DNA of 64,000 bases, from NCBI RefSeq assembly GCF_000381065.1, contig NZ_KB905843.1, positions 62,001 to 126,000 on the forward strand, written 5' to 3'. Each line of letters begins with the position of its first letter. Positions within the stretch are counted from its first letter, which is position 1. The notes below the pieces were generated by a model. That model saw only the letters and a list, made by a program, of their open reading frames with translations, made no database searches and was not told where the DNA came from. Source of the DNA: Propionispira raffinosivorans DSM 20765 (GTDB lineage Bacteria; Bacillota; Negativicutes; Selenomonadales; Selenomonadaceae). Below, piece after piece: positions 4,330 to 21,064 of this stretch. Position numbers and translations under genes: made by a program.

Positions 4330-4412
4330 TAGCACGCCTCCTCCTTGTCTAAATAGTACCATATATGATACCATTTTGTAAATATTTATTAGGAATTTTT
4401 TGGTTTCGGGTC

Positions 4413-4816: not shown

Positions 4817-4898
4817 TGTCAATTAGCTCCATTCTAAATAAAAAATACTGCAACACTTTGATTTTTCCCATAAAAAAGCATTCTCAGCCAAAGTTCTT

Positions 4899-5135: not shown

Positions 5136-5416
5136 AATATCATCTCCTAATTTATGTTTACCATTTAGGTTGTAAACTAAATACAAAGTATTTTGCTATG
5201 GTCTCATTTTCGCTTCATTATACATTTTACAAACTTCTGATAAAGATATTTAATACGCACCTGATTTTTCTCATACGCTATAAGCTGCTAATTATTGCGC
5301 CCCATACTAACACTTGCACTATATATTCCAGTTTCATAGCCAATATTAATTAGAGTCTATGCTGAAAGTCATTTTGGAACTTTGCAATACACCCTGCCAT
5401 GTGTTAATAAATGAAC

Positions 5417-5656
5417 CTAATCCCAGTCTAAATTAGCATTTGATGCGTCACCATATTTATTATGCAATTTATCTAATATTTCCTTATCCTCACTTCGCCA
5501 TTCCAGTGTACTATGCCTTATATGCCAATTCCCAGGATTAAAACTCTGAGATACAGATACGGCTAATTTCTCATATACTGTATCTCCTTTTGGGGGTTCA
5601 ACAGTCCAACCACTTTCAGTAAGATATGCATAAGTATTTTTAGAATCTGCTGACAT
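5417..5656 (-). CDS. hypothetical protein, 79 aa
   Basis: It starts MSADSKNTYAYLTESGWTV, with a GGGGAGAGG ribosome-binding site eight bases upstream. No transmembrane segment or motif is recognised. It is rich in Trp and ends in LDWD. It lies between the structured repeats, with its own ribosome-binding site, and is probably real cargo of unknown role. Confidence 0.55.
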   Translation of the reverse strand: MSADSKNTYAYLTESGWTVEPPKGDTVYEKLAVSVSQSFNPGNWHIRHSTLEWRSEDKEILDKLHNKYGDASNANLDWD

Positions 5657-5844
5657 TTTTATTCCTCTCCCCTTTTTTATTTATCCTATACTCTTCGGTA
5701 ATTAAAAAGAGATACCTGTAAAAACATCATAACAAATAATTATTTGAAAAAAAATCTTCAACCTTATATAAACCGCACATCTCATTTCTTGAAGTCAGTA
5801 AAGCGACGTGCATCGCCCCGGTACAGCAAGGTAATGTAGACACA

Positions 5845-5885
5845 AACATAAATTATTTATTTATATCTCCATAAATAATTTATGT
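5845..5885. terminator. AT-rich inverted repeat at the end of the two-TM gene
   Basis: ACATAAATTATTTAT and ATAAATAATTTATGT are perfect 15-bp arms spanning the stop codon of the gene at 5861-6760. There is no T run, so terminator function is uncertain. Confidence 0.4.
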
Positions 5886-6760
5886 TTAAGATTAAGTAAA
5901 TCTATCATTAGTGTATACCATTTATATTTATTTAACACAATTTTTTCAAACTCAACATATGGAAGAAAACTTATCCTGTCATCTGTTTTTGTAGCCCAAT
6001 TACTCGTTGCTTTGGAGCATAATACACTGCCTATTCGCTCTTGAAGTATAGTTTTAGGTATCCGAAGTGGTTTCCCATTAAGATCTATATTTTTTAGCTT
6101 CTGAGCATCAACCGCAAACTTGTTACATTGGTTAATAAGTTTAGTAAATTCTTCAATGGTTATTGTCCCTACATCTTTTTTGATAATTGTGAACTTTTTA
6201 TATAATGTTCTACATTCACATTTATCTTTATCAAATGCAACATGTGCCGTCAATAACCAAAAGCAACGATCTATATAGTTTTTAAATAACATATAATCAG
6301 TTGACAATACAAAAATACGTTGTTCGATTGGTAATAATTCTATATATTCCTCCAACTTTTCAATTTCGCTATAAATATATTTCCATAGATTCCGATTTTC
6401 TTCAGTTTCTTGATTGAAGGAACTAATAAATTTATCGAGTGTTGTTTCATTTATAACTTGTTGAATTTCTTTAGTAATATTTTCCATGATACCCTGCGTT
6501 TTTATCTGAAAAGCAATTTTTTCAACTCGAAATTGAGCTTTAGTTTCCACTATCAAATCATAAATAGCAACTGCATCCCATGCAAGCAATGAGCATGCTA
6601 TTCCCATGGCTACCGTTACCAAAATAGGATTCCATATTAAACCATCTACATAGACAAAAATCATTATTATTGCGACACCTAAAATTAACATTCTGAACAA
6701 AAACTGATTAATTAATGCCTGTCTGCGCTGTTCTGCATCCAAAAAAATCACCCATTTCAA
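5861..6760 (-). CDS. two-TM membrane protein of unknown function, 299 aa
   Basis: Two adjacent hydrophobic helices at about residues 18-42 and 46-66, after a short RR-containing N-terminus, are followed by a long charged, largely helical cytoplasmic part (E-I-E-K-L-E-E-Y-I-E-L-L) with scattered Cys. No enzyme motif is recognised. The ATG start has only a weak ribosome-binding site (GTTGAAATG), so the start is less certain than for its neighbours. The codon usage is AT-rich like the KAP gene's. Neighbours are LRAT-like and KAP-like genes, so membrane-linked defence cargo is a reasonable inference, not a demonstrated role. Confidence 0.6.
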   Translation of the reverse strand: MKWVIFLDAEQRRQALINQFLFRMLILGVAIIMIFVYVDGLIWNPILVTVAMGIACSLLAWDAVAIYDLIVETKAQFRVEKIAFQIKTQGIMENITKEIQQVINETTLDKFISSFNQETEENRNLWKYIYSEIEKLEEYIELLPIEQRIFVLSTDYMLFKNYIDRCFWLLTAHVAFDKDKCECRTLYKKFTIIKKDVGTITIEEFTKLINQCNKFAVDAQKLKNIDLNGKPLRIPKTILQERIGSVLCSKATSNWATKTDDRISFLPYVEFEKIVLNKYKWYTLMIDLLNLKHKLFMEI

Positions 6761-6957
6761 CTTTCAGTACTATGTATTATAGCATAATGCTTATTAATGA
6801 TATAGATTTTTAGAAATTTCCGTATAACTTAAATTAAAGTTTTTGACAAAGAAAGTTGTCCGCAAAGCTGTTAGATAACGATGCTTACTTGAATGTTAAT
6901 ATAATCCACAAAAATTTTATATCAACTTAAAAACATTTTTCATTCCGATCAATGTTT

Positions 6958-7177
6958 CGTAGACCAGTGTCGCAAGGACTGCTGTCTCCGGTCTGAGTAT
7001 CAGCCTCGCCCCAAAAGGCTGACCGATTAAACGCTGCGATGTTGTATTGGCACTATCACAGATTGAAAGAAAGCCGAGTGCTGTCAGCATTCGGCTACAT
7101 GAGCTCCAGACGAAGACGGCGGCACGGAATGTGCTTTCGCAGAGTCCGTGCCGCCGCCTTGGTCTGGAGCGCCTATT
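6958..7177 (+). repeat. structured GC-rich repeat, copy B (candidate non-coding RNA)
   Basis: It begins at CGTAGACCAGTGTC and ends at GGTCTGGAGCGCCTATT, as copy A does. Here the outer stem of the last hairpin is longer and perfect (CTCCAGAC/GTCTGGAG) around GGCGGCACGGA/TCCGTGCCGCC, while copy A keeps only AGAC/GTCT. It lacks the ~75-bp insertion and the long hairpin of copy A. The rest of 6761-6957 is AT-rich with no signal. Confidence 0.6.
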
Positions 7178-7196
7178 TATAGAAAGATATCACGCG

Positions 7197-7748
7197 TCAG
7201 CCATGTCTACACCAGTGTACAAAGTTTTCACAATTATTATATATAACGTTATATTCCATTTCACTCGTTCGACTCCAAGCACGACGTATAATCTCATTTT
7301 CCGAAAATGCAGCCTTGCTTTTGCGTAAATGTATATCATCCGTCCCCGCAAAATCTTCAAGTGAAATACACCTAACCATGCCTTCATTATATTCAAAGAC
7401 AAAACCCGCGCCATCATATAGTCCATGATGCGTATAGGCTATTCTTGTTACAAATATATGATCGCCTTTATTTAGCTTTTTCTTGATTTCCACTACACTT
7501 TTACCTGTAAAAATTCGTTCCATTTTAGAGACTGGATCCACAGCATCTCTTACGTTTTGAATCGAATCTTCTGCATTGTTTATTTTTTCAAGGACTGCCC
7601 CCACATCTTCTGAAACATACCTTTTTACTATTTTTTCAATTATTCGTGGATTTTCCCTACCCCTTGATGGTATGTTTGGCTGACGCGAAACAACACCGTG
7701 AGGAGTCGTTACATTTACTAAAGCTCGAAATACATCTAATCCATTCAT
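7197..7748 (-). CDS. LRAT/NC-domain (permuted NlpC/P60-like) protein, 183 aa
   Basis: The C-terminal half carries the lecithin:retinol acyltransferase-like fold: K-G-D-H-I-F-V at about 94-100, the histidine box H-H-G-L-Y-D-G at about 107-113 and the catalytic N-C-E-N-F-V-H-W-C near 172-180. The family usually has N-C-E-H-F; here the fourth position is Asn. LRAT-like enzymes are cysteine acyltransferases or phospholipases acting on membranes. The first ~90 residues are helical and unassigned. The ATG follows AAGGGAG at a rather long spacing. In this cargo context an acyl-transfer or lipase effector is possible, but this is inference. Confidence 0.75.
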   Translation of the reverse strand: MNGLDVFRALVNVTTPHGVVSRQPNIPSRGRENPRIIEKIVKRYVSEDVGAVLEKINNAEDSIQNVRDAVDPVSKMERIFTGKSVVEIKKKLNKGDHIFVTRIAYTHHGLYDGAGFVFEYNEGMVRCISLEDFAGTDDIHLRKSKAAFSENEIIRRAWSRTSEMEYNVIYNNCENFVHWCRHG

Positions 7749-7839
7749 GATTATTCATATCTCCCTTATGATCTCATTTATCAAAATTGCTATATGGCAA
7801 TATAATTTTATCATATGTTTACTAAAATACTAGCACTAA

Positions 7840-7871
7840 AAAAAGTTTACTGCACTGCAATAAACTTTTTT
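7840..7871. terminator. terminator hairpin after the KAP gene region
   Basis: AAAAAGTTTA...TGCA..TGCA...TAAACTTTTTT forms a symmetric stem with T runs on both strands, between the LRAT-like gene and the yvrJ remnant. Confidence 0.6.
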
Positions 7872-7883
7872 AGAAATTCATCT

Positions 7884-7935
7884 ATTAATTTTTCCGGATC
7901 ATTGCCTAGATTTCTTTTATCTCACCCGTCATGAT
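7884..7935 (-). pseudogene. yvrJ: 3' fragment of a yvrJ gene
   Basis: CTATTAATTTTTCCGGATCATTGCC is identical to the end of the intact yvrJ at 10660 onward, and the match continues with changes (ATTTCTTTTATCTCACCCGTC). Read on the minus strand it gives TGEIKEI, a stop, then AMIRKN. The fragment lies on the far side of the KAP gene from the intact copy, so the KAP gene sits between a whole and a broken yvrJ. Confidence 0.7.
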
Positions 7936-7977
7936 GCTTATGGCTCTTTTTAGATTCCTGCAACCTTAATACTTATC

Positions 7978-10401
7978 TTAATTTTCTTCCTTTTTCAATC
8001 TATCAAACAGCCCTGCCCAATATATAATTGGAATACTTGCTTTTGATATTATTTTTTCTCGTTCTGCTTCCGTTCCTGCCTGTTGTAATTCCCTATAGAT
8101 TTTTTCAAGCTCCTCCGGTTCTATTGAAGATGTTTCTAGGGGTTGTGACACTGGAGGTTTACTAGCTAAAACATTTTTAATAAATATACCTATTTCATCA
8201 ATAAGACTAAGATGGTCTTTAAAATATTTTATTGTTTCCGGCAAGTTTCTTTTCTGATTCGCTAAAATTTTTTCAATATTCTCGAAACTATCTTCCATCT
8301 CTTCATATGTATTAAAAGTTATTGGAGACCGTAAATAGCCTAAGTTTCTAACTAAATCTATTAACAATTGCAAAAAATGTATATACTGATAATCATAATT
8401 TGCTACTACGTCAAATTTATTCATGCGCTGTAGTAACATAAGAAATGTAACCAAAGAATCCTCACGAATTCGAGCTAAAAAGGGCTTCATATTGGCAATA
8501 AAACTGTCATTAATTTGGGTTGGCTTTTCAATTAAAAAATAGAGTTCTAATAATCCTCTATAATCCACTGGTTGATTTGGTGATTCTGTCACAATAAAGG
8601 ATATAAAATATATTTTCCAACGATATTCTTTCTTTTTACTAAATAGCTCATTCGACATATCATCTGAAAAAGGTTCTGTTAATAATTTACTTTCAAAATT
8701 TTTATAGCCTGCTTCCCATTCCGTTTTTTTCTTGCATAAAATTAACGTTTGCATACTATTTACAATCCATTGATAGGCATCTATCAGCATAGGCTCCCCT
8801 GCTTCTAACAAGCGCCAAATAAGAGATTCCGTCTGATCCCGCTGGATCCTCTTGATGGCTATTTGGCTCTCAGTCAAATCTGTTCGAGATTTTTCAGTAT
8901 ATCGAGTGTCTAACTCATAATTGTCTGCCCACAAAAATTTATACGCAATATAAACTTTTATATCCTCATCATCCTGAAAGAGTTTCTCCGTTTTTATAAT
9001 TTCTTTTGGTTTGGAGTTGTCTTTACCTGCTAAAATGCGTAATATTTCTCCCGTGGGCATCATGGTATCATCATTTTTAATATCAAAACAATATCTTAGA
9101 TTCTTCCCACAGGCAAAACGACTATAAACTTCTGGCAAAAAATGTTTAATGAAAAAGAACGCTATTATTGTATAGTTATCATCATGAACTCTATTATTGG
9201 GTCGACTCAATATGTGATAAATATCTGTCAAAAAACACCCAACTGTCCTAATACTATACAAATCTCTAAATATCACATTTATTTTTTCTGTTAAGTCTAT
9301 ACCTGGAATTTTATCCTTTAGAAAAACCATTGAAGCTGCTTTAAAATATTTCAAATCATTTAATGTTAAAATACCTTTGACAAATTTTTCTTTTTCTTCT
9401 TTTTCTTTTATTTCATATTGTACTATTTCATAAAAACCAATTTTTGACAACTTCATTGTATATGGAATATATTTTTCCAAATATTTAGGCTCGCCTGCAT
9501 CTCCCAAACATTTTTTGAGTCTGACCGGATCATATTGATACAAAATTTTAACGCATTCATTATCACTTGCCAGTTTTTCTGAAATATAAAAAATTTTTAT
9601 TATTAAATTTTCATCTACGATCCTATCCAGATCTTCATAAACAATAATGATAGTTTTTTCAATTTTTTTTAATTCCTCTTTTAAGCTATCAAATGCTTTG
9701 GCATAAGATTCATTTGACTCTGAAAGTAATTCGCCAAAAAATTTTATTTTTGGTTCTTTATCAAAGAAATTTTTTAATCGTTTAGAATACCTTGATATAA
9801 TTCCATTCTCATATAAAACCCGTTCCATTTCATCGACTATAATCTGCGGTAAAACATCCAAATTGCAAGCTAATACATCAATCGTGATAACTTCATACTT
9901 CGCATTGTCTTCAAAAGAATCTTTTAATTTCTCAACAAAAAAAGTCTTTCCATCGCCCCATGCAGCTTCTATCCCAATAATCGGAAAATCTTTGTTTTCG
10001 ATTTTTTCTTTTATTGTATGTAAATCGCTTTTCCGTTTACCGTATAATTGCGGATTTAAATCTGATTTATTCACAACAAATTGGCAGAAAGTTGTGCAAT
10101 GCAAGGCAAACTGTATCATTTGCAATATAAGCAACAAGCATGCATCGCTAGGATTTACAAAAAAAAATGCTACATTTCCACCATACAAAACCGCAAAAAT
10201 TTTATTATAAAATACGCGATTCTTACAAGGACAAAATTGTATTAGCACTAAAATGCAACAAACCATACTTAATATTGCATAAATAGATAAAGGAACCTTC
10301 AATCCCCAAAATAGTACTACAAAAACCATCATACTTTGTAAAAAAAGCATTATAACGTTTTTCAATTCTTTTTTCAATTCTTTCTTCAATTCTTTTGTCA
10401 T
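7978..10401 (-). CDS. membrane KAP-family P-loop NTPase, 807 aa
   Basis: It opens with a repeated K-E-L-K-K-E-L-K-K-E-L-K and four hydrophobic helices at about 15-34, 36-57, 66-82 and 86-106. Walker A is G-I-E-A-A-W-G-D-G-K-T (143-153) and Walker B I-I-I-V-Y-E-D-L-D-R (251-260), the layout of KAP NTPases, in which transmembrane helices accompany the P-loop. The C-terminal ~450 residues are helical with no recognised domain. KAP proteins are membrane-associated NTPases often found in mobile and defence regions; the substrate is unknown. The start has a TTGGAG ribosome-binding site. It is flanked by yvrJ and a yvrJ remnant, suggesting insertion as cargo into a preexisting operon. Confidence 0.8.
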   Translation of the reverse strand: MTKELKKELKKELKNVIMLFLQSMMVFVVLFWGLKVPLSIYAILSMVCCILVLIQFCPCKNRVFYNKIFAVLYGGNVAFFFVNPSDACLLLILQMIQFALHCTTFCQFVVNKSDLNPQLYGKRKSDLHTIKEKIENKDFPIIGIEAAWGDGKTFFVEKLKDSFEDNAKYEVITIDVLACNLDVLPQIIVDEMERVLYENGIISRYSKRLKNFFDKEPKIKFFGELLSESNESYAKAFDSLKEELKKIEKTIIIVYEDLDRIVDENLIIKIFYISEKLASDNECVKILYQYDPVRLKKCLGDAGEPKYLEKYIPYTMKLSKIGFYEIVQYEIKEKEEKEKFVKGILTLNDLKYFKAASMVFLKDKIPGIDLTEKINVIFRDLYSIRTVGCFLTDIYHILSRPNNRVHDDNYTIIAFFFIKHFLPEVYSRFACGKNLRYCFDIKNDDTMMPTGEILRILAGKDNSKPKEIIKTEKLFQDDEDIKVYIAYKFLWADNYELDTRYTEKSRTDLTESQIAIKRIQRDQTESLIWRLLEAGEPMLIDAYQWIVNSMQTLILCKKKTEWEAGYKNFESKLLTEPFSDDMSNELFSKKKEYRWKIYFISFIVTESPNQPVDYRGLLELYFLIEKPTQINDSFIANMKPFLARIREDSLVTFLMLLQRMNKFDVVANYDYQYIHFLQLLIDLVRNLGYLRSPITFNTYEEMEDSFENIEKILANQKRNLPETIKYFKDHLSLIDEIGIFIKNVLASKPPVSQPLETSSIEPEELEKIYRELQQAGTEAEREKIISKASIPIIYWAGLFDRLKKEEN

Positions 10402-10661
10402 AGTATCGCTCCAAATATTGTTATTTTATTCCTCGTTATTATAACATTCTTGATGTCAAATTAGTTGGTAAATTAAGAAATTTCCAGCTAGTAAAGTTCT
10501 GTCGACGATCGAATGAATTGCTTCCAAGAACGTTAGCACCTATACATCGGATTAAAATACAATTACCCAGAAAAGTGTACCTATTTATTTTACGACAATA
10601 TAGTTTATAAAAGAGCAAAAAAAAATACAAAGCATAAACCATACTTTGTATTTTCTGCCTA

Positions 10662-10832
10662 TTAATTTTTCCGGATCATTGCCGAGAGTTCTTTGATCTC
10701 GCCCGCCAGGTCGCCTATTTTATCTGCGAAAACGTCCAGCGACTTTTGAAATTTAATCAGCAGGTAGAGCGTAATCACAATTGGAAACCCGACCTGTGCG
10801 ATTGCAGTCAATATATTGCCGTCCATAGCCAT
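10662..10832 (-). CDS. yvrJ: YvrJ-family small membrane protein, 56 aa
   Basis: It begins MAMDGNILTAIAQVGFPIVI, has one hydrophobic helix (about 9-27) and then an amphipathic helix ending S-A-M-I-R-K-N. The length and the F-P-I-V-I-T-L-Y-L-L pattern are those of the YvrJ family. An AAGGGGGTG ribosome-binding site precedes the ATG. YvrJ typically follows DUF1659 and DUF2922 genes, exactly as here. Its function is unknown. The 260 bp beyond it (10402-10661) hold no convincing gene. Confidence 0.8.
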   Translation of the reverse strand: MAMDGNILTAIAQVGFPIVITLYLLIKFQKSLDVFADKIGDLAGEIKELSAMIRKN

Positions 10833-10867
10833 ACACCCCCTTTTTGCCCAATCGATCTATATACAGG

Positions 10868-10895
10868 AAAAGCCCCGCAGTTGCAGGGCTTTTTT
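10868..10895 (-). terminator. terminator between DUF2922 and yvrJ
   Basis: AAAAGCCCTGC-AAC-TGCGGGGCTTTTCC on the minus strand: a GC-rich stem with flanking T and A runs. Confidence 0.65.
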
Positions 10896-10909
10896 GACGT
10901 TGACTACAC

Positions 10910-11122
10910 TTAGACAAGTGCCGTAACGGTGACTTCTTTAATTTGCGCTTTGACCGCCGTCTTTAAATCGCCACTTTTATTTGAAAATACATTTTTAGCG
11001 ATACACGCTGCCATATATTCGTCTGTATTGGCTTTGGTTAGACCGTCTTTCGGATCGGAAAGCGAATACTGCACTTCTTTATCTGACACCGTTTTAAATA
11101 CCAGTTCCAGAGACTTTGCCAT
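10910..11122 (-). CDS. DUF2922-family protein, 70 aa
   Basis: It begins MAKSLELVFKT, with the family core D-K-E-V-Q-Y-S-L-S-D-P-K-D-G-L-T and a C-terminal A-Q-I-K-E-V-T-V-T-A. The ribosome-binding site is GAAAGGAGG. DUF2922 genes are small, of unknown function, and stand next to DUF1659 and YvrJ genes in many Firmicutes. Here it is 34 bp after the DUF1659 gene. Confidence 0.85.
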   Translation of the reverse strand: MAKSLELVFKTVSDKEVQYSLSDPKDGLTKANTDEYMAACIAKNVFSNKSGDLKTAVKAQIKEVTVTALV

Positions 11123-11156
11123 GATGTTTCCTCCTTTCTAGCGAAATAAATGCCGC

Positions 11157-11381
11157 TTATTTACTAAGGAGTTCATACGATTCGGAAACTTGAATCGCAT
11201 CTACCGTATGCGACTGCAACGCTGCAGCCATGCTGCCGATTGCATACAAATCTTCATTGACTGCACTGGCTTTAACAGTTCCCAGTGTACGCGTTGACAA
11301 AACGGCTTCGCCAGTGGAATTGACACCAGTCTGCACTTTGACTTTTAGCGTTTTGGAATTTCCTGTTGCTGTAATTGCCAT
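11157..11381 (-). CDS. DUF1659-family protein, 74 aa
   Basis: It begins MAITATGNSKTLKVKVQTGV and contains the R-T-L-G-T-V-K-A-S-A segment and A-I-Q-V-S-E-S-Y-E-L at the end, as in DUF1659 proteins. The AAAGGAGGG ribosome-binding site is optimal. First gene of the DUF1659-DUF2922-YvrJ cassette. A 290-bp gap with one hairpin separates it from the amidase gene. Confidence 0.85.
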   Translation of the reverse strand: MAITATGNSKTLKVKVQTGVNSTGEAVLSTRTLGTVKASAVNEDLYAIGSMAAALQSHTVDAIQVSESYELLSK

Positions 11382-11401
11382 AACAAGCCCTCCTTTCTAT
11401 A

Positions 11402-11453
11402 ACAGAAAAGCCCCGCCTACACAGGAAACGTCTTGTGTAAACGAGGCTTTCTG
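11402..11453 (-). terminator. hairpin upstream of the DUF1659 gene
   Basis: On the minus strand AGAAAGCCTCG...ACACAAG...CTTGTGT-like bases...CGGGGCTTTTCTG form a stem between the amidase and DUF1659 genes. It may end the amidase transcript or lie in the leader of the cassette. The remaining DNA to 11674 shows nothing else. Confidence 0.5.
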
Positions 11454-11674
11454 CGGAATAGATTCTATAACAGGGAGCGCGCCCACTGCATCGTATTGAA
11501 AACAAACATGTCTACGCTTTGAACCTATTCCGTAAGTTCTTTTCTTGCAAAATCAACGAGGAAGTTTAAACAGTTACGTGGTTTAGTACAATTTAATACT
11601 ACAAAATCTACCGACTTTATTCAAGTAGTCAATTTAAATTACTTGTTTTATTTGCAATATTTAACGTTCTGCTG

Positions 11675-12205
11675 TCAATTACTGCCCGTCAACAATGCAT
11701 AATCCGTGATACCACGGGCAATTGCTTTGCTAAATTCGGGTCCTGCATCAACCAATAGTTCCTGATCGGCTTCGTTGCTTAAAAAAGCGGTTTCGACAAG
11801 GACCGCCGGGCAGGTTGTTTTACGCAGGACAAAAAAGGTCTTATTTTCTTTGACGCCCCGATCCACCGTATGCAATGCATTTAAAATTTGTGTCTGAATG
11901 CAGTTTGCCAAGGTGCCGCCGGCTGCCGACAAACTATAACAAAATGTCTCCGTACCTTTCGCCTCCGGATTCGAAAAACCGTTACAATGAATCGCTACAA
12001 AAACATCGGCGGCAAAATCCGCAGCACTCTGGACGATTTTCCCCAAATCATCATCCTGCATAAAACGAACTTCACAACCAGCCGCCAATAAAGAATCGGA
12101 TACCTCATGCATAAACGTGCAGCAAAGCTCTGCTTCCGTTGTCTGGGTGCCGACCACGCCCGGATCAATTCCCGGCGCATGTCCGCCATTTATAAATACT
12201 TTCAT
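11675..12205 (-). CDS. N-acetylmuramoyl-L-alanine amidase (Amidase_3)
   Basis: 176 aa from the ATG at 12203-12205, chosen because GAGGTG lies eight bases upstream; a GTG three codons earlier overlaps that site. The zinc-amidase motifs are N-G-G-H-A-P-G at the start, an early Glu (T-E-A-E-L), A-I-H-C-N-G-F near residue 75, and A-V-L-V-E-T-A-F-L-S-N near 135, giving two His and Glu ligands. It cleaves the lactyl-amide bond between muramic acid and the peptide stem. There is no signal peptide, so export would need a holin-like partner; the 31-aa membrane peptide ending at its ribosome-binding site is a candidate. An endolysin-like role is inferred. Confidence 0.85.
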   Translation of the reverse strand: MKVFINGGHAPGIDPGVVGTQTTEAELCCTFMHEVSDSLLAAGCEVRFMQDDDLGKIVQSAADFAADVFVAIHCNGFSNPEAKGTETFCYSLSAAGGTLANCIQTQILNALHTVDRGVKENKTFFVLRKTTCPAVLVETAFLSNEADQELLVDAGPEFSKAIARGITDYALLTGSN

Positions 12206-12210
12206 TTTGG

Positions 12211-12306
12211 TCACCTCACAACAAAATAGAAAAACAGGTTCGAGAGCGTACTACCCACAAAACTGCATACTGTAAAAATCAGCATCCACTTTATTTCTGT
12301 AGTCAT
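12211..12306 (-). CDS. 31-aa single-TM peptide (holin-like candidate)
   Basis: The frame MTTEIKWMLIFTVCSFVGST continues to FFYFVVR and is almost wholly one membrane helix. An AAAGGAGATG ribosome-binding site stands ahead of the ATG at 12304-12306. The stop codon lies within the ribosome-binding site of the amidase gene, implying translational coupling. Small membrane peptide plus amidase recalls a holin-endolysin pair, though it is shorter than known holins; that role is inference. Confidence 0.6.
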   Translation of the reverse strand: MTTEIKWMLIFTVCSFVGSTLSNLFFYFVVR

Positions 12307-12339
12307 TGTAACGGACATCTCCTTTCATTGTGGTTCGTT

Positions 12340-13092
12340 TGTTCGTTTCACATCGAGCCCTGCGCTGCCCGAACTGGCGGCACAGCCGATGCAACTCGCA
12401 CGGGGCGGCATCGATTGTGCCACCATTCCGCCAGCGCCCGAGGCTATCCGCCTAGGAGTGGCAAAAAACGCCCCTCCCACGCGGCAACGACCAAGCCGTG
12501 CCGACCATAAAATCCGAATTGACTACTAGGAAACATGGTTAAACTTCTCGATTGCCACGGCATTGCAGCTGTCACCCCGCCGCCTTTGGGGAGCCGTCTT
12601 GCCACGTGTACATGGCGGACAACCTGACAAACAGGGACGGCAAAAAACGCCGCCCGTCAGGCAGTTCGCCGTGTTCACTCTCCGTCCTCCTCCCCCTCTG
12701 CTGCGCATTCACCCCCACCACTGGCAACTCCTGCCGAGGGCAATTATGATGCGACAAAAGAAAAAGGGAGAGGAGGACTCCGGGCACCTGCGGTCGACTA
12801 TGCCCGCCTGCGGAAGCGGAGTCGCTAAACTAAGCCGCGCGGGCATACTCCCCAAAAGCGGCGGGGTGACCGAGGCGACGATCCGTAGTTCGCTTCGCGC
12901 CATTCAAACCTGCAAAAGGTAGGCGCTTGTGATAACGCATCACCCGTGGCTGCATCGAACCAACTTTCTGTATGTGGATTCACGCAGGCAACGGACTGCT
13001 CATAAGGCAGCTGTCCGTTGCCTGCGTAATTCCACCGCCCCTACATTATTTCGTAATGCCGAGTGCGACCGCCCCCGCGGTCGCACTCGGCA
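12340..13092 (-). ncRNA. ~750-nt GC-rich hairpin-dense region, candidate large structured RNA
   Basis: This stretch has no credible gene on either strand, is far richer in G+C than its surroundings and is packed with inverted repeats: a long-range pair 12571-12593/12848-12870 (22 of 23 complementary); 14 bp at 12983-12996/13013-13026; 16 bp at 13057-13072/13077-13092; GGCACA...TGTGCC at 12379-12421; and two hairpins sharing GGCAAAAAACGCC (12459-12471, 12639-12651). The single mismatch of the long-range stem is A-C if plus-strand RNA but G-U if minus-strand RNA, so I favour minus, as for neighbouring genes. Size and setting recall large ornate phage RNAs such as GOLLD or ROOL; identity is not shown. 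Confidence 0.55.
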
Positions 13093-13103
13093 CCCCAAAC
13101 CTT

Positions 13104-13274
13104 TTAATACCAATTTTTCTTACGAAGCTCTTCTTTCAATAAATCAAAATCAGTACACAAATTCGTCACTAACATAAGCACCGAATCATGTTCTGCCGCT
13201 GGTGACTTCGCCAGATTATCGATACATCTTCCCAGCGTGTCCACATTTTTCTTTACAGTAGAATCCGAATCCAC
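13104..13274 (-). CDS. hypothetical protein, 56 aa
   Basis: It starts at a GTG (13272-13274) behind a GGAGGCGA ribosome-binding site and reads MDSDSTVKKNVDTLGRCIDN, ending E-E-L-R-K-K-N-W-Y. It is all-helical in appearance and acidic-basic, with two Cys. I do not recognise it. It lies directly before the structured region; its stop is 12 bp from the 16-bp hairpin at 13057-13092. Confidence 0.55.
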   Translation of the reverse strand: MDSDSTVKKNVDTLGRCIDNLAKSPAAEHDSVLMLVTNLCTDFDLLKEELRKKNWY

Positions 13275-13376
13275 TTAAATCGCCTCCTTTCGGTACAATC
13301 TTTGCCGATCCGCCGCCTCTTTTCTCTACTAAAATTTCACCATAGGTACTATACCTAAAAACAGACTTCTATAGCA

Positions 13377-13856
13377 TCAGCATTTGTAAACGCTGAATCC
13401 ATTCTCATTTTCTTGTCTTTTATATCGCGCCGCTTGTTGATAGGTATGCGAAAACACCCTGTATAAACCAATATCCTCACAATCAACATCTACACAATCG
13501 CCTAGCTGCCCGATCAAAGCATCGACCCAATCATCATACGAAAAAAACTCACCCGAAACCTCTGGCATTACATCCACTTCTTGCATCAGCGATTTAACCT
13601 CAGCGGGAGGCAAAACCTTGCCAACCTTCACCGTAGGCGAAAGCGGCGCTGCCGATTCGATTATTTTATAAGTGGGCGGCTCATTCCCGCCTGGTGAAGT
13701 ATACTGTAAAAATTGTCGGTCCACCAGTTCTCGTCTGGCATGAATAAACGTTCCATGACTGACCCCAAGCACCTCACGTATCTCTTTTTCTTTAAGTTTC
13801 CCTTCATGCCCTGCTAAAAAATCCAAAAAACGCAAAGCCTGTTTTGATAAACTCAT
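13377..13856 (-). CDS. winged-helix DNA-binding protein, 159 aa
   Basis: The first ~65 residues are a winged helix (L-R-F-L-D-F-L-A-G-H-E-G, then V-S-H-G-T-F-I-H-A-R-R-E-L-V as recognition helix), the rest an acidic region with two Cys. The same recognition helix logic (F-I-x-A-R-K-E-L-V) occurs in the gene at 14404-14712, so the two are probably paralogues. Last of a four-gene operon with 4-bp ATGA overlaps. Phage replisome-organiser proteins have this type of N-terminal domain; replication initiation is a reasonable but unproven role. Confidence 0.6.
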   Translation of the reverse strand: MSLSKQALRFLDFLAGHEGKLKEKEIREVLGVSHGTFIHARRELVDRQFLQYTSPGGNEPPTYKIIESAAPLSPTVKVGKVLPPAEVKSLMQEVDVMPEVSGEFFSYDDWVDALIGQLGDCVDVDCEDIGLYRVFSHTYQQAARYKRQENENGFSVYKC

Positions 13857-14407
13857 GGTGTCACCTCCGGCGCTGCAGCTTCGACAAAAACAGCATCGTT
13901 GTATTCCATATCAATTTGCGCAATATGTATAAAACTCAAAACAGTCTGCATCGATTCCGCCGCTTGTATCGTAAACGGAGTCGCATCCGCCAGCCGAATA
14001 ATATCCTGTATCTTCTTTGAGTTTTTTAATAATTCCATAAATTCATTCTGCAACGGATCATTTTTCACCGAGGCATTCCATTCTGCCTCCAAATCACATA
14101 ATTCAGCAAACATATAATGATTCCGTTTAAAAAGCGACGTCATTTTTCCCGCTCGAACATCGATCTGCTGCAAATACATTGGCTGTATCCCTTTTTGGAT
14201 TAGGCTTTGTCGTTTTTGCTGAATCAACTGCTGTTCATTGGCAAAAATCTTCCAGTCCTCAAACTCTTCCGGCTTGCGTAAAACAGGTATTCCTTTTTTC
14301 TTATCATAAATTGCCTTCTCTTCAAGCAAAATATCGTACATTGTATCTAATCCATTAGAATCTCTGTATCTAAGTTCCCGTATTTCACCACTCACCAGTA
14401 TCTTCAT
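13853..14407 (-). CDS. hypothetical protein, 184 aa
   Basis: It overlaps both neighbours by four bases (ATGA), so it is translationally coupled within the 14917-to-13377 operon. It begins M-K-I-L-V-S-G-E-I-R-E-L-R-Y-R-D-S-N-G and is helical and Gln/Met-rich afterwards. No motif is recognised. Its place between two winged-helix genes suggests a part in replication or copy control of the element. Confidence 0.6.
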   Translation of the reverse strand: MKILVSGEIRELRYRDSNGLDTMYDILLEEKAIYDKKKGIPVLRKPEEFEDWKIFANEQQLIQQKRQSLIQKGIQPMYLQQIDVRAGKMTSLFKRNHYMFAELCDLEAEWNASVKNDPLQNEFMELLKNSKKIQDIIRLADATPFTIQAAESMQTVLSFIHIAQIDMEYNDAVFVEAAAPEVTP

Positions 14408-14712
14408 TGAATCTCTCCTCTGTTCGTCAGACTTCCACGGCTGACGATTCTATATTTTGCTGGTCGGTTCCCACTCTGCACTTCATGGATAATATATTCA
14501 CCATCGACCAGTTCCTTGCGGGCAATAATAAATTGCTCATGATTCAATCCTAAATCACCGCGAATTTTACTTTCCCGAATAACCAGTGGAAAATGCCAAC
14601 GTGCACTATTTGCATAATGCATTAGGATAAACCAGAAAGCAATCGCTCGTGCGCTGACTGGATTATACAAACACCGCTTATGAAATTCATTAATTTCACT
14701 AAGATAATTCAT
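14404..14712 (-). CDS. winged-helix replication-type protein, 102 aa
   Basis: Reads like the N-terminal domain of phage replisome organisers: S-A-R-A-I-A-F-W-F-I-L-M-H-Y-A-N, then L-G-L-N-H-E-Q-F-I-I-A-R-K-E-L-V-D-G-E-Y-I and a wing R-P-A-K-Y-R-I-V. It is short (102 aa) and lacks a C-terminal domain, which may have been separated into the following genes. It starts one base after the excisionase-like gene ends. Confidence 0.65.
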   Translation of the reverse strand: MNYLSEINEFHKRCLYNPVSARAIAFWFILMHYANSARWHFPLVIRESKIRGDLGLNHEQFIIARKELVDGEYIIHEVQSGNRPAKYRIVSRGSLTNRGEIQ

Positions 14713-14713
14713 T

Positions 14714-14917
14714 TCATCTTAGTCGATTGCTGCCCTGGGCATTTGACTGCTTCTTGACATAATCACGCAGCCAGTTCACAGCATCATCTTTATGGATCAA
14801 CGTATGTCTTCCCGAATGCATCGCCGGAAATCCAGTGATTTTCGTCATTTCACGAAGCCGGTTTATCCCTATACCCGTCAACTCAGCAAACTCTTTAATT
14901 GACACCATAATCGTCAT
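14714..14917 (-). CDS. excisionase-like MerR-type helix-turn-helix protein, 67 aa
   Basis: S-I-K-E-F-A-E-L-T-G-I-G-I-N-R-L-R-E-M is a MerR-type helix-turn-helix, followed by the wing H-S-G-R-H-T-L-I-H and a short C-terminal helix. Size and position, divergent from the repressor and near int, fit a recombination directionality factor that binds attP arms and drives excision. An AGGAAGTGG ribosome-binding site precedes the ATG. First gene of the divergent operon; likely silenced by the XRE repressor at 15142. Confidence 0.65.
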   Translation of the reverse strand: MTIMVSIKEFAELTGIGINRLREMTKITGFPAMHSGRHTLIHKDDAVNWLRDYVKKQSNAQGSNRLR

Positions 14918-14961
14918 GTAACCACTTCCTTTTATCTGACATTAGCAAAATGCGTTTTAAT

Positions 14962-15047
14962 ATTCACACTTCGTTATAATTTATTATAGCATGTGTCTAA
15001 AGACCTGTAAATACGTTTTGCTATTTACAATTCGCACTTTGTTATAT
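14962..15047. promoter_or_regulatory. operator region between repressor and excisionase-like genes
   Basis: ATTCACACTTCGTTATA (14962-14978) and ATTCGCACTTTGTTATA (15030-15046) are direct repeats 68 bp apart; a partly inverted form, ATTACGAAGCGTTATA, lies at about 15083-15098. The first is identical to 1543-1559 at the element's left end. The XRE protein and/or the excisionase-like protein probably bind here. Confidence 0.6.
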
Positions 15048-15141
15048 TATAATAGAATTAATAACAAATCGTATTATAAATAATTACGAAGCGTTATATA
15101 AGCCTAAACTTTACGAGTAAAAAATCAAGGAGGTGCTTAGA

Positions 15142-15528
15142 TTGGGATTTTCGCAAATGTTAAAAGATCTTCGCAATTCAGCCGGACTGCAACAAAAACA
15201 GCTTGCTGAAAAATTAGGTGTCACACAAGCTACAATCAATGGCTATGAATCAGGTAAACGAGAACCAAGAATTGAAATGCTGATAAAGATAGCAGCCCTT
15301 TTCAATGTCACGATTGATTTTCTCATTGATGCGCACACAGAAAAACCTTCGGATAGAGCACAGGACCTTCTGAAAAAGATTGATTCTTTATCCGAACAAA
15401 ATTTTGAAACAGCCGCCCAAGTAATTACCGCCCTCAGCAACGACCCGCGCCAACTTTATCGGGAATTTATGCTGAGTCGTCAAATAGCCGAGACACCCGC
15501 TGACTACAAAACCGACAAACAAAAATAA
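15142..15528 (+). CDS. XRE-family repressor of the element
   Basis: 128 aa from a TTG start, preferred over the upstream GTG because AAGGAGG is placed seven bases before it. The N-terminal helix-turn-helix is Q-Q-K-Q-L-A-E-K-L-G-V-T-Q-A-T-I-N-G-Y-E-S-G-K-R-E-P at about 17-42, followed by F-N-V-T-I-D-F-L-I. The C-terminal part is short and has no peptidase-like S24 region, so it would not self-cleave in an SOS response. It diverges from the excisionase-like operon and probably keeps the element quiescent. Confidence 0.85.
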   Translation: MGFSQMLKDLRNSAGLQQKQLAEKLGVTQATINGYESGKREPRIEMLIKIAALFNVTIDFLIDAHTEKPSDRAQDLLKKIDSLSEQNFETAAQVITALSNDPRQLYREFMLSRQIAETPADYKTDKQK

Positions 15529-15679
15529 ATTGCCTGTCGGCTGAACCTACGAACTACCCCTGCTATTACTGTTTTATTTTGTTTTATTTCCTTTAGTACT
15601 TATCTGTCGGAATAGCGACCGCAAACTCCCCTGCAAAGTAGACGGCACTCCCGACCGCAAATAATACGACAATGTTTTT

Positions 15680-15722
15680 TTATCCACAGCATATAAACAG
15701 GATAACCACAGAGTTATCCACA
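15680..15722. promoter_or_regulatory. two perfect DnaA boxes before the integrase gene
   Basis: TTATCCACA occurs at 15680-15688 and 15714-15722, with a partial ATAACCACA between. The second touches the integrase ribosome-binding site (AGAAAGGAG). Binding of host DnaA could control int or help replication of the excised element; inference. Confidence 0.5.
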
Positions 15723-15739
15723 GAAAGGAGTTTATAAAA

Positions 15740-16870
15740 ATGGCAAGACGAGGAAACGGAGAAGGGTCGATTTACTACGATAAAACAAAAAAATGCTGGG
15801 TTGCTTCCATCTGCATCGGGGTTGACACCACCACCGGAAAAACAATCCGCCGTCGTGTCTATGCCGATAATAATAAAGACATCATCACCAAGAAAAACGA
15901 TATGCTGGCAAAATATAAAGACACCTATTACATGGATGCTGACCGGATCACCGTCGGTGACTGGGTGTCAAAATATCTTGACACCTATAAAAAAGGCAGT
16001 GTCCGGCAAAACACCTACGAATCCTATCTATATCTAGCCAAACACTACATTGCCCCGCACTTAGGTACGGTAAAACTCGACAAACTGCTACCTATACAAA
16101 TACAGCATTTTGTCAACGATTTGGCGGCGCAACACTCGCCCCGCACGGCAGAATACGTCCTTGCCATTTTAAAAATGGCGATCCGAAGGGCGGTAGATGA
16201 AAACATTCTCGTCAAAGACGTCACTCGCGGCATTAAAAAACCGCGAAAAAAAGCAAAAGAAATTCATCCCCTGACCCCCGAAGATGTGCAAATTCTGATC
16301 GATAAAACAAAATCCGACAAAATGAAAATGGCGATCAAAATTCTCTATATGACGGGTATGCGTAGTGAAGAGCTGCTCGGTCTGACTTGGAATAAAATTA
16401 ACTTCGCCAAACAACAGCTTACCATCAGTCAGGTTATTATTCGCACCAAAGATGGTCCTATTATTGAAGCGCCAAAAACACAAGCCAGTGCCCGCGCTAT
16501 ATCCCTGCCGCCTAAACTTTTGACGGCACTCAAAAACTATAAAAAACTGCAAGCCGCTGAAATACTCAAAAACAAAAACTATCAAAATCAAAACTTCGTA
16601 ATCTGTCGGCAAAATGGACTGCCCATGATGCCGGTATGTTTCTGCAATATTTTTGGACGCAATGCCAAAAATGCCGATATTGCCATTACCGCCCACGGAC
16701 TCCGCCATACCCACGCCACCCAACTTTTCAAAGCCGGCTGGAACGCAAAAGATGTCCAGGAACGCCTCGGACATTCTTCCGTCAGCGTAACCCTGGACAT
16801 CTACACCCATCACGTTCCTCAAAGACAAAACGACATCGCCGCCTACCTAGACCAAATTTGCCCGAACTAG
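15740..16870 (+). CDS. int: tyrosine recombinase (integrase)
   Basis: 376 aa. The N-terminal AP2-like arm-binding domain (G-E-G-S-I-Y-Y-D-K-T-K-K-C-W, ~7-20, then G-K-T-I-R-R-R-V) is followed by a SAM-like core-binding domain (~72-155) and the catalytic domain. Visible catalytic residues are Arg208 (T-G-M-R-S-E-E), His319-x-x-Arg322 (H-G-L-R-H-T-H), His345 (L-G-H-S-S) and the nucleophile Tyr355 (L-D-I-Y-T-H-H). It should integrate and excise the element at the tRNA-Ser anticodon loop. It is 4.6 kb from the right attachment site, farther than usual, because the defence operon and tRNA lie between. The ribosome-binding site is AAAGGAG. Confidence 0.93.
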   Translation: MARRGNGEGSIYYDKTKKCWVASICIGVDTTTGKTIRRRVYADNNKDIITKKNDMLAKYKDTYYMDADRITVGDWVSKYLDTYKKGSVRQNTYESYLYLAKHYIAPHLGTVKLDKLLPIQIQHFVNDLAAQHSPRTAEYVLAILKMAIRRAVDENILVKDVTRGIKKPRKKAKEIHPLTPEDVQILIDKTKSDKMKMAIKILYMTGMRSEELLGLTWNKINFAKQQLTISQVIIRTKDGPIIEAPKTQASARAISLPPKLLTALKNYKKLQAAEILKNKNYQNQNFVICRQNGLPMMPVCFCNIFGRNAKNADIAITAHGLRHTHATQLFKAGWNAKDVQERLGHSSVSVTLDIYTHHVPQRQNDIAAYLDQICPN

Positions 16871-16873
16871 ACG

Positions 16874-16910
16874 AAAGGCACCGCTGCATTTTTGCAGCGG
16901 TGCCTTTTTT
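16874..16910. terminator. terminator between int and the HNH gene
   Basis: AAAGGCACCGCTGCA-TTT-TGCAGCGGTGCCTTTTTT: a 15-bp stem and T run serving the integrase gene, possibly both convergent genes. Confidence 0.85.
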
Positions 16911-18048
16911 ATCTACACTGGCGTTTAGCTTCCTTCACTATGCATTTTAATTTTTCAATCAGGTCAACATCCTCATTTCCATTCTTCACAAAATCTAATT
17001 GTTCAGCTAAATCTCTTTTAAGTTTTCCTAGAGCCTCTTGATTGATATTTTCTTTGCAATACGGATATCCTATCATCGCAGCCTTCAATGCCGCTTGATC
17101 AGCATACGGATTATAACCTTTCTTTGACAAATCCGTCCATAAATTATCCGTCCACATTAACTTTTTTCGTATAAAATCCGCTGCAATATTTTTATGATAC
17201 TTATATAATTCTTCAGTTTTAAATACCTTTAAAAAATTTTTAATATCTTTATCGCGAGTATTTACATGAACATTCAAATCTATCTCCATTAGACTTTTGA
17301 ACTCTGCTTTAAATTTGAAATAATCATTAAAATTATCACAATAAGGATTCGGATCATCAAATGTAAAGTCTTTATCCCCCTTTAGTGACGAATTACAAAA
17401 TTTGCAACTTGGCACCAAATTATAAAGCGACATTGAAAAATATGGGTATTTACTTTTAGGGAGAAAATGGTCTAAATCTGCCCGACATTTACCATCTTTG
17501 GTAAGTATAGGTGTTATATATTGTCTATTACAATATGGACAAACCCTTATATTTGACAGAAATACAAATGTATATGGTGTCCATTTTGTATCGAATTTTT
17601 GATTGTCACAATAGCTTTCTAAGTAAAGTGGTTGAGTCGGTTCGGTACTTGTTCGTTTGGAAAATCTTTCATAGCCAAATAGTTCTAATATTACATCTTG
17701 GTATATCTCTTGTTCTAAAGCACTGGACATATGTATAGCATTATATGCAACTGAAATTTCATCATACAGTGTTCTTAATACATTAACATCACCAATTGCC
17801 AACAATTCCGCATTGCTCTCACAAATTTGGATAAAGTCATCAAATTCAGTTGACATACCTTGCTGCTTAAATTCATCAAACCATTGCATTTGTTCTGGTG
17901 ATGCAGATTTTAATTTATTTTTTTTCTTTGTAACTTTCCTTTGAAAAATTTCATCATAATTTGCGCTGTCAAAATTGGGTACTATTTTATTTTGAAAATA
18001 TTCCAAATGTCTTCGTTGCATTTCGGTACTAATCTCAATTTTAATCAT
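16909..18048 (-). CDS. HNH endonuclease, PtuB-like effector
   Basis: 379 aa. The first ~160 residues are helical and charged. The HNH/zinc region is C170-P-Y-C173, then D-L-D-H-F-L-P-K-S-K (His194), N210, and C215-K-F-C218-N-S followed by S-L-K-G: two Cys pairs to bind zinc around a beta-beta-alpha-metal core. This is the pattern of the HNH partner (PtuB) in Septu systems and related retron-linked PtuAB pairs. The start overlaps the ATPase stop by four bases (ATGA). It should be the DNA-cutting effector, controlled by the ATPase. At 379 aa it is longer than common PtuB proteins. A Septu assignment is likely, not proven. Confidence 0.75.
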   Translation of the reverse strand: MIKIEISTEMQRRHLEYFQNKIVPNFDSANYDEIFQRKVTKKKNKLKSASPEQMQWFDEFKQQGMSTEFDDFIQICESNAELLAIGDVNVLRTLYDEISVAYNAIHMSSALEQEIYQDVILELFGYERFSKRTSTEPTQPLYLESYCDNQKFDTKWTPYTFVFLSNIRVCPYCNRQYITPILTKDGKCRADLDHFLPKSKYPYFSMSLYNLVPSCKFCNSSLKGDKDFTFDDPNPYCDNFNDYFKFKAEFKSLMEIDLNVHVNTRDKDIKNFLKVFKTEELYKYHKNIAADFIRKKLMWTDNLWTDLSKKGYNPYADQAALKAAMIGYPYCKENINQEALGKLKRDLAEQLDFVKNGNEDVDLIEKLKCIVKEAKRQCR

Positions 18049-20042
18049 TTCATTTCACCTAAATGTTTATGATTACGAATAATAAATTCCATTACCTTAA
18101 CTTGTTCAGGCTGCGTAAGATCTTTAAATTTTTCTATAACAACTGTTGAGTTCTGAACATGATCATCAAAACAAGCAGAAAGTTTATCATTTGCAGACTC
18201 CCATAAATTCAACAACATATTTTTTATCAATGGCTCGCCTATCAGATCAATTATCTTTTTATTTTTTTCTAAAACACGACGATACGCTGATACATATTCC
18301 AAATTCGACAAAGTTTGTATTTCATGCTTTCTATCATCCTCATAGTTGTTTAAGTCCTTATTTATGGACTCTAAATTTTCTCGTAGTGTTTTAATGATTC
18401 CATTAGAGTAATCACCTATTATGCCTATATGCTTATTGTCATTTAAGAAAAAAGAGTCATTGTATAAATTATATATATTGGCGGCAAAAGTTTTCTTTTT
18501 TATATTCGTATCAATAACAATCTTATCATCAGAACCGGTTAAATAAATAATATGATGATTGGGAATATCAGACAGAAAAATTGGCGAATGTGTTGTAAAA
18601 ATGATTTGAATTTTCTTTCCCTCAAAAATCGCAGGCATCATATCTAAAATTCTTTCTACAAATTTCTGCTGCCACTTCGGATGTAAGTAAAGATCCGCTT
18701 CATCCATTAGAATTAGCATACTGTGTGTCCTGGTCCCTGATTGCCTTTCTTGATCCTGTATTTTCTGTCCCAATTCATAGAATGTTGCATATAAATCAAA
18801 AAAAGCAAATTCGCCTGTGCTCATTTCCCATTCAAAAAGCAAATAATCATATATCTGTCCAATACTTACCAGATAATTATTATAAAAAGCCTTTATTTTC
18901 GCTACATTTTTTTTACCGTTTAAATTCAATAAAATACCATCATCAAGCATATCTGTTTTAATTTCATCTTCTAACAAAAATTTTATGGTTTTTTTATATG
19001 CCATAGCAATTGCAGCTTTATTCGCCGGTGGATTAATCATCTTATTCATCGTAACGTTTACAAATTTCATAATAAAAACAACATCATCTGTAATGTTATT
19101 TTTATTATAACTGATTATTTCTTCCCACTTTTCCAATATTTCTTTTATATTTATATAATATTTTTGAGTACTCTGACTGGACAGAGCTGGAACAATACGC
19201 CGTAACAAAGAAAAAAGAATACCCTCTATACAAAATCGAGCATCTTCCGCTTGTAGAAAATCAAACTTTTCAGATTGAAAAATATCATTTATCTGTTTTT
19301 TTATAACTCTAAATCCACTAAACTTATTTTTGATTAAGTCTTGAATAATATCTCGATAATTCATCTTCTTCACAGCTAATCTAGACAATGTAAATGGTAA
19401 GTTCGCTGATTCCAAAGCTCTCATTTGTCTTTGGGTTGATTTATGGAAAAAATTTAATATAGGATCAGACTCATTATTGGTAACACGCATCTCAACTGCG
19501 TTGCTCTTCGCTGATTGAAGACTTTGCATTAATGATAAATTGTAAAAATGCCCCTCCGACTTTAGAAAAGACGCCATATAACTAGAACAACTGAAAGTAT
19601 TTGTATAATTAACCATGCAAATACTTTCACTTAAACTTTTGGTGTTGAAAAAAAATTTATATTTTTCTTGCCTCTTTATTTGTTCTATATTTTCATCCAA
19701 CTTGCTATACCATATAAAAAATTCACCTGGCATGTTTTTTTCTGTAGCTGGTTGAAAAAAAATAATAATATATGGTATAGCAGAAGCCCCCTCAATTGAC
19801 TCTATTCTGTAAACATCACTGAGTGCCATAAGCAAGGTAGTTTTACCGCTACCATTTTCACCAACAATCACTGTAACATTAGAAATATTGGGAGTATTTT
19901 CTGCAAAAATATTTACAGCCTCATTATTTTCTTCAAAAAATAACTTATTTGCATTATATGAAAATTGAAAATTAGAACTGAAATTAAATGCTTCTGATTT
20001 TATTTTCTCATAACCTTTAATCCAAAAAAACACTAACTCCAT
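18045..20042 (-). CDS. Septu/PtuA-like SMC-type AAA ATPase
   Basis: 665 aa from the ATG at 20040-20042, chosen since AAGGAG lies eight bases upstream. Walker A is G-E-N-G-S-G-K-T-T (61-69); Walker B with the D-loop-like L-M-D-E-A-D-L-Y-L-H-P at about 445-455; then F-T-T-H-S-P (~483-488), the switch His of OLD/RecF-type ATPases. Between them is a ~370-residue helical insertion. These are features of PtuA and similar defence ATPases without a fused TOPRIM domain. PtuA forms a complex that holds HNH PtuB inactive until infection. Here it is the middle gene of three. Confidence 0.78.
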   Translation of the reverse strand: MELVFFWIKGYEKIKSEAFNFSSNFQFSYNANKLFFEENNEAVNIFAENTPNISNVTVIVGENGSGKTTLLMALSDVYRIESIEGASAIPYIIIFFQPATEKNMPGEFFIWYSKLDENIEQIKRQEKYKFFFNTKSLSESICMVNYTNTFSCSSYMASFLKSEGHFYNLSLMQSLQSAKSNAVEMRVTNNESDPILNFFHKSTQRQMRALESANLPFTLSRLAVKKMNYRDIIQDLIKNKFSGFRVIKKQINDIFQSEKFDFLQAEDARFCIEGILFSLLRRIVPALSSQSTQKYYINIKEILEKWEEIISYNKNNITDDVVFIMKFVNVTMNKMINPPANKAAIAMAYKKTIKFLLEDEIKTDMLDDGILLNLNGKKNVAKIKAFYNNYLVSIGQIYDYLLFEWEMSTGEFAFFDLYATFYELGQKIQDQERQSGTRTHSMLILMDEADLYLHPKWQQKFVERILDMMPAIFEGKKIQIIFTTHSPIFLSDIPNHHIIYLTGSDDKIVIDTNIKKKTFAANIYNLYNDSFFLNDNKHIGIIGDYSNGIIKTLRENLESINKDLNNYEDDRKHEIQTLSNLEYVSAYRRVLEKNKKIIDLIGEPLIKNMLLNLWESANDKLSACFDDHVQNSTVVIEKFKDLTQPEQVKVMEFIIRNHKHLGEMK

Positions 20043-20088
20043 TGAGGTCACTCCTTAAAATGATTAATTTTGAGTATTTATCTAAGCT

Positions 20089-20916: not shown

Positions 20917-21020
20917 ATTAACATCTCCTTAATCCCTTAGGATTTTATTTTATGAAAATATCAACTAAGACAAGCTTTTTAATCACTCGCCCTCATTGCC
21001 TCTTTTTAAAAACAAATGCA

Positions 21021-21053: not shown

Positions 21054-21064
21054 TAAAATACTAC

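Follow-up and report, generated by a model that had tools for sequence, protein, structure and literature searches.

The minus strand of positions 12332-13101 of the window, which is the whole 64,000-nucleotide stretch of Propionispira raffinosivorans DSM 20765 DNA analysed here, likely encodes a member of a previously undescribed family of structured RNAs that acts as RNA. Transcription and function are inferred, and a role within a particle is not part of this reading. The computation shows homology, a multi-stem core with compensatory changes, the absence of a conserved reading frame, and linkage to one type of mobile island. There is very little doubt that the RNA family and its conserved structure are real. 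The first-pass annotation, made from the sequence alone, had proposed a candidate large ornate RNA on the minus strand, possibly of a new class. This was supported in all tests run, because homologues occur in 25 genomes, compensatory changes exceed those of the controls, no frame is conserved and the strand test favours the minus strand, but transcription remains unshown. Among the outcomes named as refuting the proposal were a lack of homologues with compensating changes and a strong protein match in one frame; such homologues were found, and a conserved protein on either strand was rejected.

The region at 12340-13092 comprises ~750 GC-rich, gene-free bases inside the mobile island and is the single occurrence of this sequence in its own genome. 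GC content is 0.51-0.58 over 12000-13249, compared with 0.25-0.47 in most of the element, and the minus strand folds with -406 kcal/mol versus -318 (sd 7) for shuffled sequences (z -12.5, 20 shuffles). In the minimum-energy fold the ends are joined by a predicted closing stem pairing 13096-13101 with 12332-12337. The parts of the RNA are as follows.

12332-13101, minus strand: large structured noncoding RNA; limits set by the predicted closing stem and the GC-rich region, exact transcript ends undetermined
12588-12804, minus strand: conserved core, matched by covariance models R1-R3 and present in 8 families of the class
12848-12870, minus strand: P1, 5' strand of the long-range stem, 22 Watson-Crick pairs and 1 G-U (22/23 bp inverted repeat)
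12571-12593, minus strand: P1, 3' strand, partner of 12848-12870
12799-12847, minus strand: P2 hairpin, 9-bp arms at 12839-12847 and 12799-12807, conserved GUCG directly after
12684-12778, minus strand: P4, arms at 12765-12778 and 12684-12697, with GGGGGUGAAUGCGCAGC in the loop
12606-12678, minus strand: P5 (GUGnACA...UGUnCAC), lengthened in the window by one GGCGUUUUUUGCC hairpin, then conserved GUGGCAAGACGGC
13057-13092, minus strand: perfect 16-bp hairpin on the RNA's 5' side, so far seen only in the window copy
12974-13035, minus strand: 27-bp hairpin, 89% complementary, in the 5' domain, window-specific so far
12460-12472, minus strand: second hairpin tip GGCGUUUUUUGCC (as read on the minus strand), in the 3' domain

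The GC-rich, hairpin-dense, noncoding character claimed in the first-pass annotation was borne out, and its 22/23 long-range stem and perfect 16-bp stem held as well. Its "perfect 14" stem held only in part, as the P4 arms of the window match at 13 of 14 bp, the single mismatch being G-U on the minus strand. The two hairpins with an identical tip (GGCAAAAAACGCC) were confirmed and located at 12460-12472 and 12639-12651, and the 27-bp hairpin had been omitted. For the outer domains of the window copy, no homologue was detected.

Relatives share structure more than sequence. Among the BLAST matches in 189 genomes of the family, one was real: L004, in the different genus Megamonas (Megamonas sp. 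UBA1799), which has only the short blocks GGGGGUGAAUGCGnnAGCAGAGGGGG, CGGAGAGUG and UGUnCACGnGGCAAGACGGCnCCC in common with the window. Where the window has its 22/23-bp and 14-bp stems, the Megamonas copy has stems of different sequence, a long-range one of 21/21 bp and an inner one of 16 bp. Two of the first genome BLAST matches, within dnaG (L005) and within an epimerase gene (L006), were judged to be chance. A covariance model of the window and Megamonas copies (R1) matched 15 genomes of the family, the weakest two (G033, G148) probably by chance, and models enriched with later relatives (R2, R3) recovered ~37 loci in 25 of 380 genomes of the class, covering 9 genera and 8 families, with E-values reaching down to 1e-23 and below, and 1-3 copies per carrying genome. 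Weak or partial matches (L043, L061, L077, L078) were left out as homologues. No credible addition was made by the covariance models in 398 genomes sampled across the phylum, where two matches outside the class (G389, G448) stood at chance level (E 0.006 in 398 genomes). Within the genomes sampled, the family is therefore confined to one class, taken to be Negativicutes. The relatives measure 0.75-1.2 kb and fall into four groups, consisting of the window, the Megamonas copy, genus g21 (~1.1-1.2 kb), and several families with large genomes (f8, f9, f17, f23, f25 and f31; ~1.05 kb, with shorter variants too).

A core is common to all four groups, in the order 5' P1 - P2 - UAGUC - P3 - P4 - CGGAGA - P5 - GACGG - P1' 3'. 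P1 measures 17-23 bp with arms 203-254 nt apart, P2 begins 0-2 nt after it, and both pair at the same place in all four groups with different bases. In P4, changes on both sides were seen across relatives in 10 of the 16 aligned and modelled pairs. A first test found compensatory changes in 12 pairs, a count that 0 of 500 shuffles reached (shuffle mean 3.6); once the large-genome families were included, the totals were 14 pairs and 49 double-change cells, against shuffle values of 7.2 and 17.0 (sd 4.1; 0/500). Sliding the stem partners destroyed the covariation signal, leaving the true register far above every slid version, and among nine full-length relatives 31 of 273 predicted pairs were double-changed. 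The shuffle counts are not probabilities, as the sequences are related, but this caveat does not touch the pairing of P1 and P2 in four groups or the slid controls. The alignments behind the models and counts (A1, A3, A7) were trimmed by hand to remove variable loops, leaving stem columns unaltered, and some rows of A7 also lost two nucleotides of a GCCCGG segment so that the register was preserved. A conserved fold with compensatory changes, as expected of a structured noncoding RNA, is present. Outside the core, g21 members carry ~4 copies of a hairpin module (GCGAcGUGG...CCACCaaAGC), the 5' end of f25-type members pairs with the 3' end, and in several relatives the body terminates in a hairpin and T-run.

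A conserved protein on either strand could be ruled out by three lines of evidence. Nine f25-type relatives share no long ORF, their common open stretches reaching ~40 codons at most; 87% of the pairwise indels would shift a frame, as just 49 of 376 have a length divisible by 3; and substitutions are spread evenly across the three codon positions. The strand was assessed from folds computed with G-U pairs disallowed, of which only the pairs common to both strands were retained. Columns with G-U versus A-C numbered 30:16, 28:18 and, in A3, 6:2, favouring the minus strand and summing to 64:36 (binomial p ~0.007), albeit with columns that are not fully independent. Alignment fold energies were also better on the minus strand (-382 vs -331; -283 vs -258), and conserved unpaired columns are purine-rich there. 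As these three observations agree, the minus strand of the window is likely the RNA strand. On the other side of the ledger, the long perfect stems taken alone gave G-U 14 versus A-C 15, the plus strand of the region folds strongly too (-374, z -15.7, 20 shuffles), and on the favoured strand the loops of some hairpins are rich in T. No convincing promoter for the window RNA was found, a 10/12 match at 13243-13215 being at chance level. Three relatives have a terminator-like hairpin immediately ahead of the 5' boundary of the RNA.

The carrier of the window copy extends from ~1409 to 21107, with a 49-bp direct repeat of tRNA-Ser at either end. Its main features are listed below.

1409-1457, no strand: distal att repeat, 49-bp copy of the tRNA-Ser 3' end
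21059-21107, no strand: proximal att site in tRNA-Ser(CGA)
11675-12214, minus strand: N-acetylmuramoyl-L-alanine amidase, endolysin-like
11157-11381, minus strand: DUF1659
10910-11122, minus strand: DUF2922, linked to the RNA across the class
10662-10832, minus strand: YvrJ (PHROG holin)
14714-14917, minus strand: AlpA/excisionase-like HTH protein
15133-15528, plus strand: CI-like repressor
15740-16870, plus strand: tyrosine integrase

The islands of two relatives are likewise bounded by tRNA repeats (13.6 and ~15.6 kb), and island size overall is ~13-20 kb (13.6-19.7 kb). No terminase or capsid gene was present among the island ORFs examined. With an integrase, a repressor, an excisionase, tRNA att repeats, a small size and no complete virion genes, the island has the gene content and size expected of a phage satellite. 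The phage-type setting suggested earlier is thus amended, the host being a tRNA-integrated, satellite-like island and not an ordinary prophage; the carrier is probably phage-satellite-like, with neither helper dependence nor packaging in helper particles shown. Islands with amidase, DUF1659, DUF2922, YvrJ and variable defence cargo form an apparently undescribed satellite-like family, with relatives of 13-16 kb in other genera. The literature searched offered nothing useful on DUF1659, DUF2922 or YvrJ, or on large RNAs of Negativicutes. Beside the integrase, a two-gene candidate defence operon occupies 16909-20051 (PADLOC PDC-M62A/B; resembling Septu PtuAB), and the cargo also includes a PDC-S31 candidate defence gene (DUF2971, 2247-3494) and a KAP family NTPase (7978-10401). 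Near-identical HicB-like genes lie outside (533-907) and inside (3645-4019) the island, possibly reflecting tandem islands at the same tRNA. A drum RNA (RF02958) is found in the island near its distal end, at 1937-2047, and a 6S RNA (RF00013) elsewhere in the window, at 59709-59888.

The RNA lies within 12 kb of DUF2922 in 29 of 35 copies, where 0.8 would be expected, DUF2922 itself being present in ~1-5 copies per genome. RNA copies are located at the border of backbone and cargo. In the eight islands with a mapped backbone (L052, L053, L113, L114, L117, L119, L120, L125), the RNA is co-directional with the integrase and points its 3' side at the amidase/AlpA operon, which is on the opposite strand; in five mapped islands, it stands tail-to-tail with the amidase at a distance of 0.5-2.9 kb. 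The sole exception is the window copy, which shares the strand and direction of the amidase and lies between it and 13377-13856. The earlier claim of a minus-strand operon setting beside an amidase consequently holds for the window only, as relatives face that operon tail-to-tail. At four g21 loci (L053, L052 and L055 among them), two RNA copies flank the cargo, inverted and both outward; as G149 and G150 carry the same island, these represent three independent cases. Copies within one island are no more similar to each other than copies from different islands. In L053 and L052, the second RNA copy is near the distal att site. In L121, the RNA is immediately preceded by a BsrG-like type I toxin-antitoxin RNA (RF01412, 9094-9324), and similar sequence occurs close to several further copies; in several large-genome families (L112, L121, L122, L124) the RNA is just upstream of genes resembling TetR-like regulators or efflux pumps.

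Very few large structured RNAs are known in bacteria, and no function has been established for GOLLD or ROOL. Scanning 4227 Rfam 15 models, including OLE, HEARO and raiA, at the gathering score gave no match inside the RNA, either in the window or in the relatives, and no credible weak match in the region; miRNA-type matches at E-value thresholds were rejected as generic long hairpins. The GOLLD model reached at best 11.5 bits against a cut-off of 150, outside the RNA, and had no match in relatives. The ROOL model was unmatched in the window and relatives in both gathering and E-value scans. The first-pass statement that nothing ties the region to either therefore held. GOLLD (RF02032) is an ornate RNA of ~0.8 kb found in phage-derived elements, with a conserved part, variable domains and no known function (PMC12286853). 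The island RNA resembles it in size class (0.75-1.2 kb), ornate fold, phage-derived carrier, unknown function and the combination of conserved and variable parts, but its P1-P5 core has no detectable relation to the GOLLD model and it is here seen only in Negativicutes islands. GOLLD is encoded in prophages or phages, often near tRNA islands; the island RNA is on a phage-like island integrated at tRNA-Ser, ~8 kb from that tRNA and not in a tRNA array. ROOL is a large RNA of prophages and phages that forms a cage and has no known protein partner (PMC12286853); the likeness is that of a large RNA of phage-type elements, yet there is no covariance-model match. OLE is a large, highly conserved structured RNA of Gram-positive lineages that forms a ribonucleoprotein complex with dedicated proteins (PMC9723947), while the island RNA gives no OLE match, sits on mobile islands and has no shown partner. 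Finally, phage ICP1 has a ~800 nt ncRNA beside its lysis cluster and the PLE satellite an abundant ncRNA, both of unknown role (PMC7567579). These are likewise long or abundant ncRNAs of a phage and a satellite, but they belong to Vibrio elements, and no covariation-based family is described in the passages of PMC7567579 considered here. By sequence, the island RNA is thus neither GOLLD nor ROOL, although it is likely the same kind of object, and the kind itself, a large ornate RNA of phage-like elements, is already known. In the literature searched, which mostly lacked subscription papers and preprints, there appears to be no description of the family, of its structure and spread through the class, or of the island. 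The finding adds an unrelated large-RNA family whose carrier is a single defined kind of small mobile island with few genes. As the class has cultured members, the role of giant RNAs in phage-like elements becomes directly testable, and the RNA may serve as a marker for satellite-like islands that carry defence cargo, are widespread in Negativicutes and have apparently not been described.

The best reading is that the minus strand of 12332-13101 would encode a standalone, trans-acting large structured RNA of tRNA-integrated, satellite-like islands, because the element is class-wide, ornate and noncoding, has its own orientation and keeps a fixed place at the backbone-cargo border. It may be transcribed independently, probably upon island induction, and may fold into a rigid multi-domain particle (~1 kb), both of which are inferred. 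It could be speculated that such a particle provides a scaffold or compartment, either by itself or together with island proteins, in line with what has been proposed for the phage RNAs GOLLD and ROOL, which form RNA cages (PMC12286853). This scaffold or particle role rests on analogy with GOLLD, ROOL and the ICP1/PLE ncRNAs, and we lean slightly against it. A bolder version, again by analogy, remains conceivable, in which a ~1-kb RNA of a new class assembles into an island-encoded particle or cage, possibly with DUF1659/DUF2922 partners, and serves packaging, lysis timing or the protection of island products.

The main rival explanation is a palindrome-rich DNA element, that is, a recombination or transposition site or an anchor of homologous exchange at the backbone-cargo border, with the hairpins acting as cruciform or single-stranded DNA. 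In its favour, two inverted, outward copies flank the cargo in four loci, copies sit at the border while cargo and neighbours vary among islands, and the long stems are almost wholly Watson-Crick without a G-U excess; it has also been cautioned that motifs occurring in multiple copies without a consistent orientation may be mobile elements (PMC11109978). However, the core is multi-branched, is closed by a long-range stem and keeps conserved single-stranded segments at its junctions; G-U exceeds A-C in the alignment-wide, strand-neutral test, and folding is strand-asymmetric with purine-rich unpaired columns. Moreover, paired copies of one island are no more alike than copies between islands, no transposase accompanies them, and genomes hold 1-3 copies and not many. 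This rival is accordingly unlikely, and function at the level of RNA is favoured over function at the level of DNA. A long antisense or 3'-end regulator, whose transcript would enter the convergent amidase-DUF-YvrJ operon and repress it, with structure giving stability, would fit the tail-to-tail arrangement of the five mapped islands. Yet conservation lies in the RNA body and not in the operon-overlapping part, second copies are directed to the att end, the window copy is co-directional, and a terminator-like hairpin closes several relatives, making this very unlikely. The same-strand position of the window RNA between 13377-13856 and the amidase suggests that it might act in cis on the amidase operon, as a leader or attenuator controlling lysis-type genes. 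This is largely refuted by orientation and most improbable, since in 8 of 8 backbone-mapped relatives the RNA, on the opposite strand, converges tail-to-tail with the amidase or AlpA operon and so cannot lead it.

Apart from the trans-acting RNA reading, a few sequence matches in phages and plasmids may be recorded. BLAST against phages and plasmids yielded short, chance-like matches only and no homologue. The pattern CTCTGCTN{1,4}CGCATTCACC occurred in 20 stretches of viral contigs, about the estimated chance number and without support from the models, and the viral pattern matches L131/L132 scored only 14 bits. A 37-nt stretch of the Sporomusa termitida plasmid NZ_CP036260.1 (33711-33747) matches the 3' part of the RNA at 92% and is perhaps a remnant. 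The sequence CCCCTCTGCTnCGCATTCACCCC, nearly identical to the P4 loop strand of the window RNA, is found at 3626-3654 of viral contig L015 and 3230-3262 of L025; homology of these sites to the RNA is not supported by the models, and the coincidence is unexplained. In both contigs, CCCCTCTGCTnCGCATTCACCCC is flanked by two long near-repeats resembling the template and variable repeats of diversity-generating retroelements.
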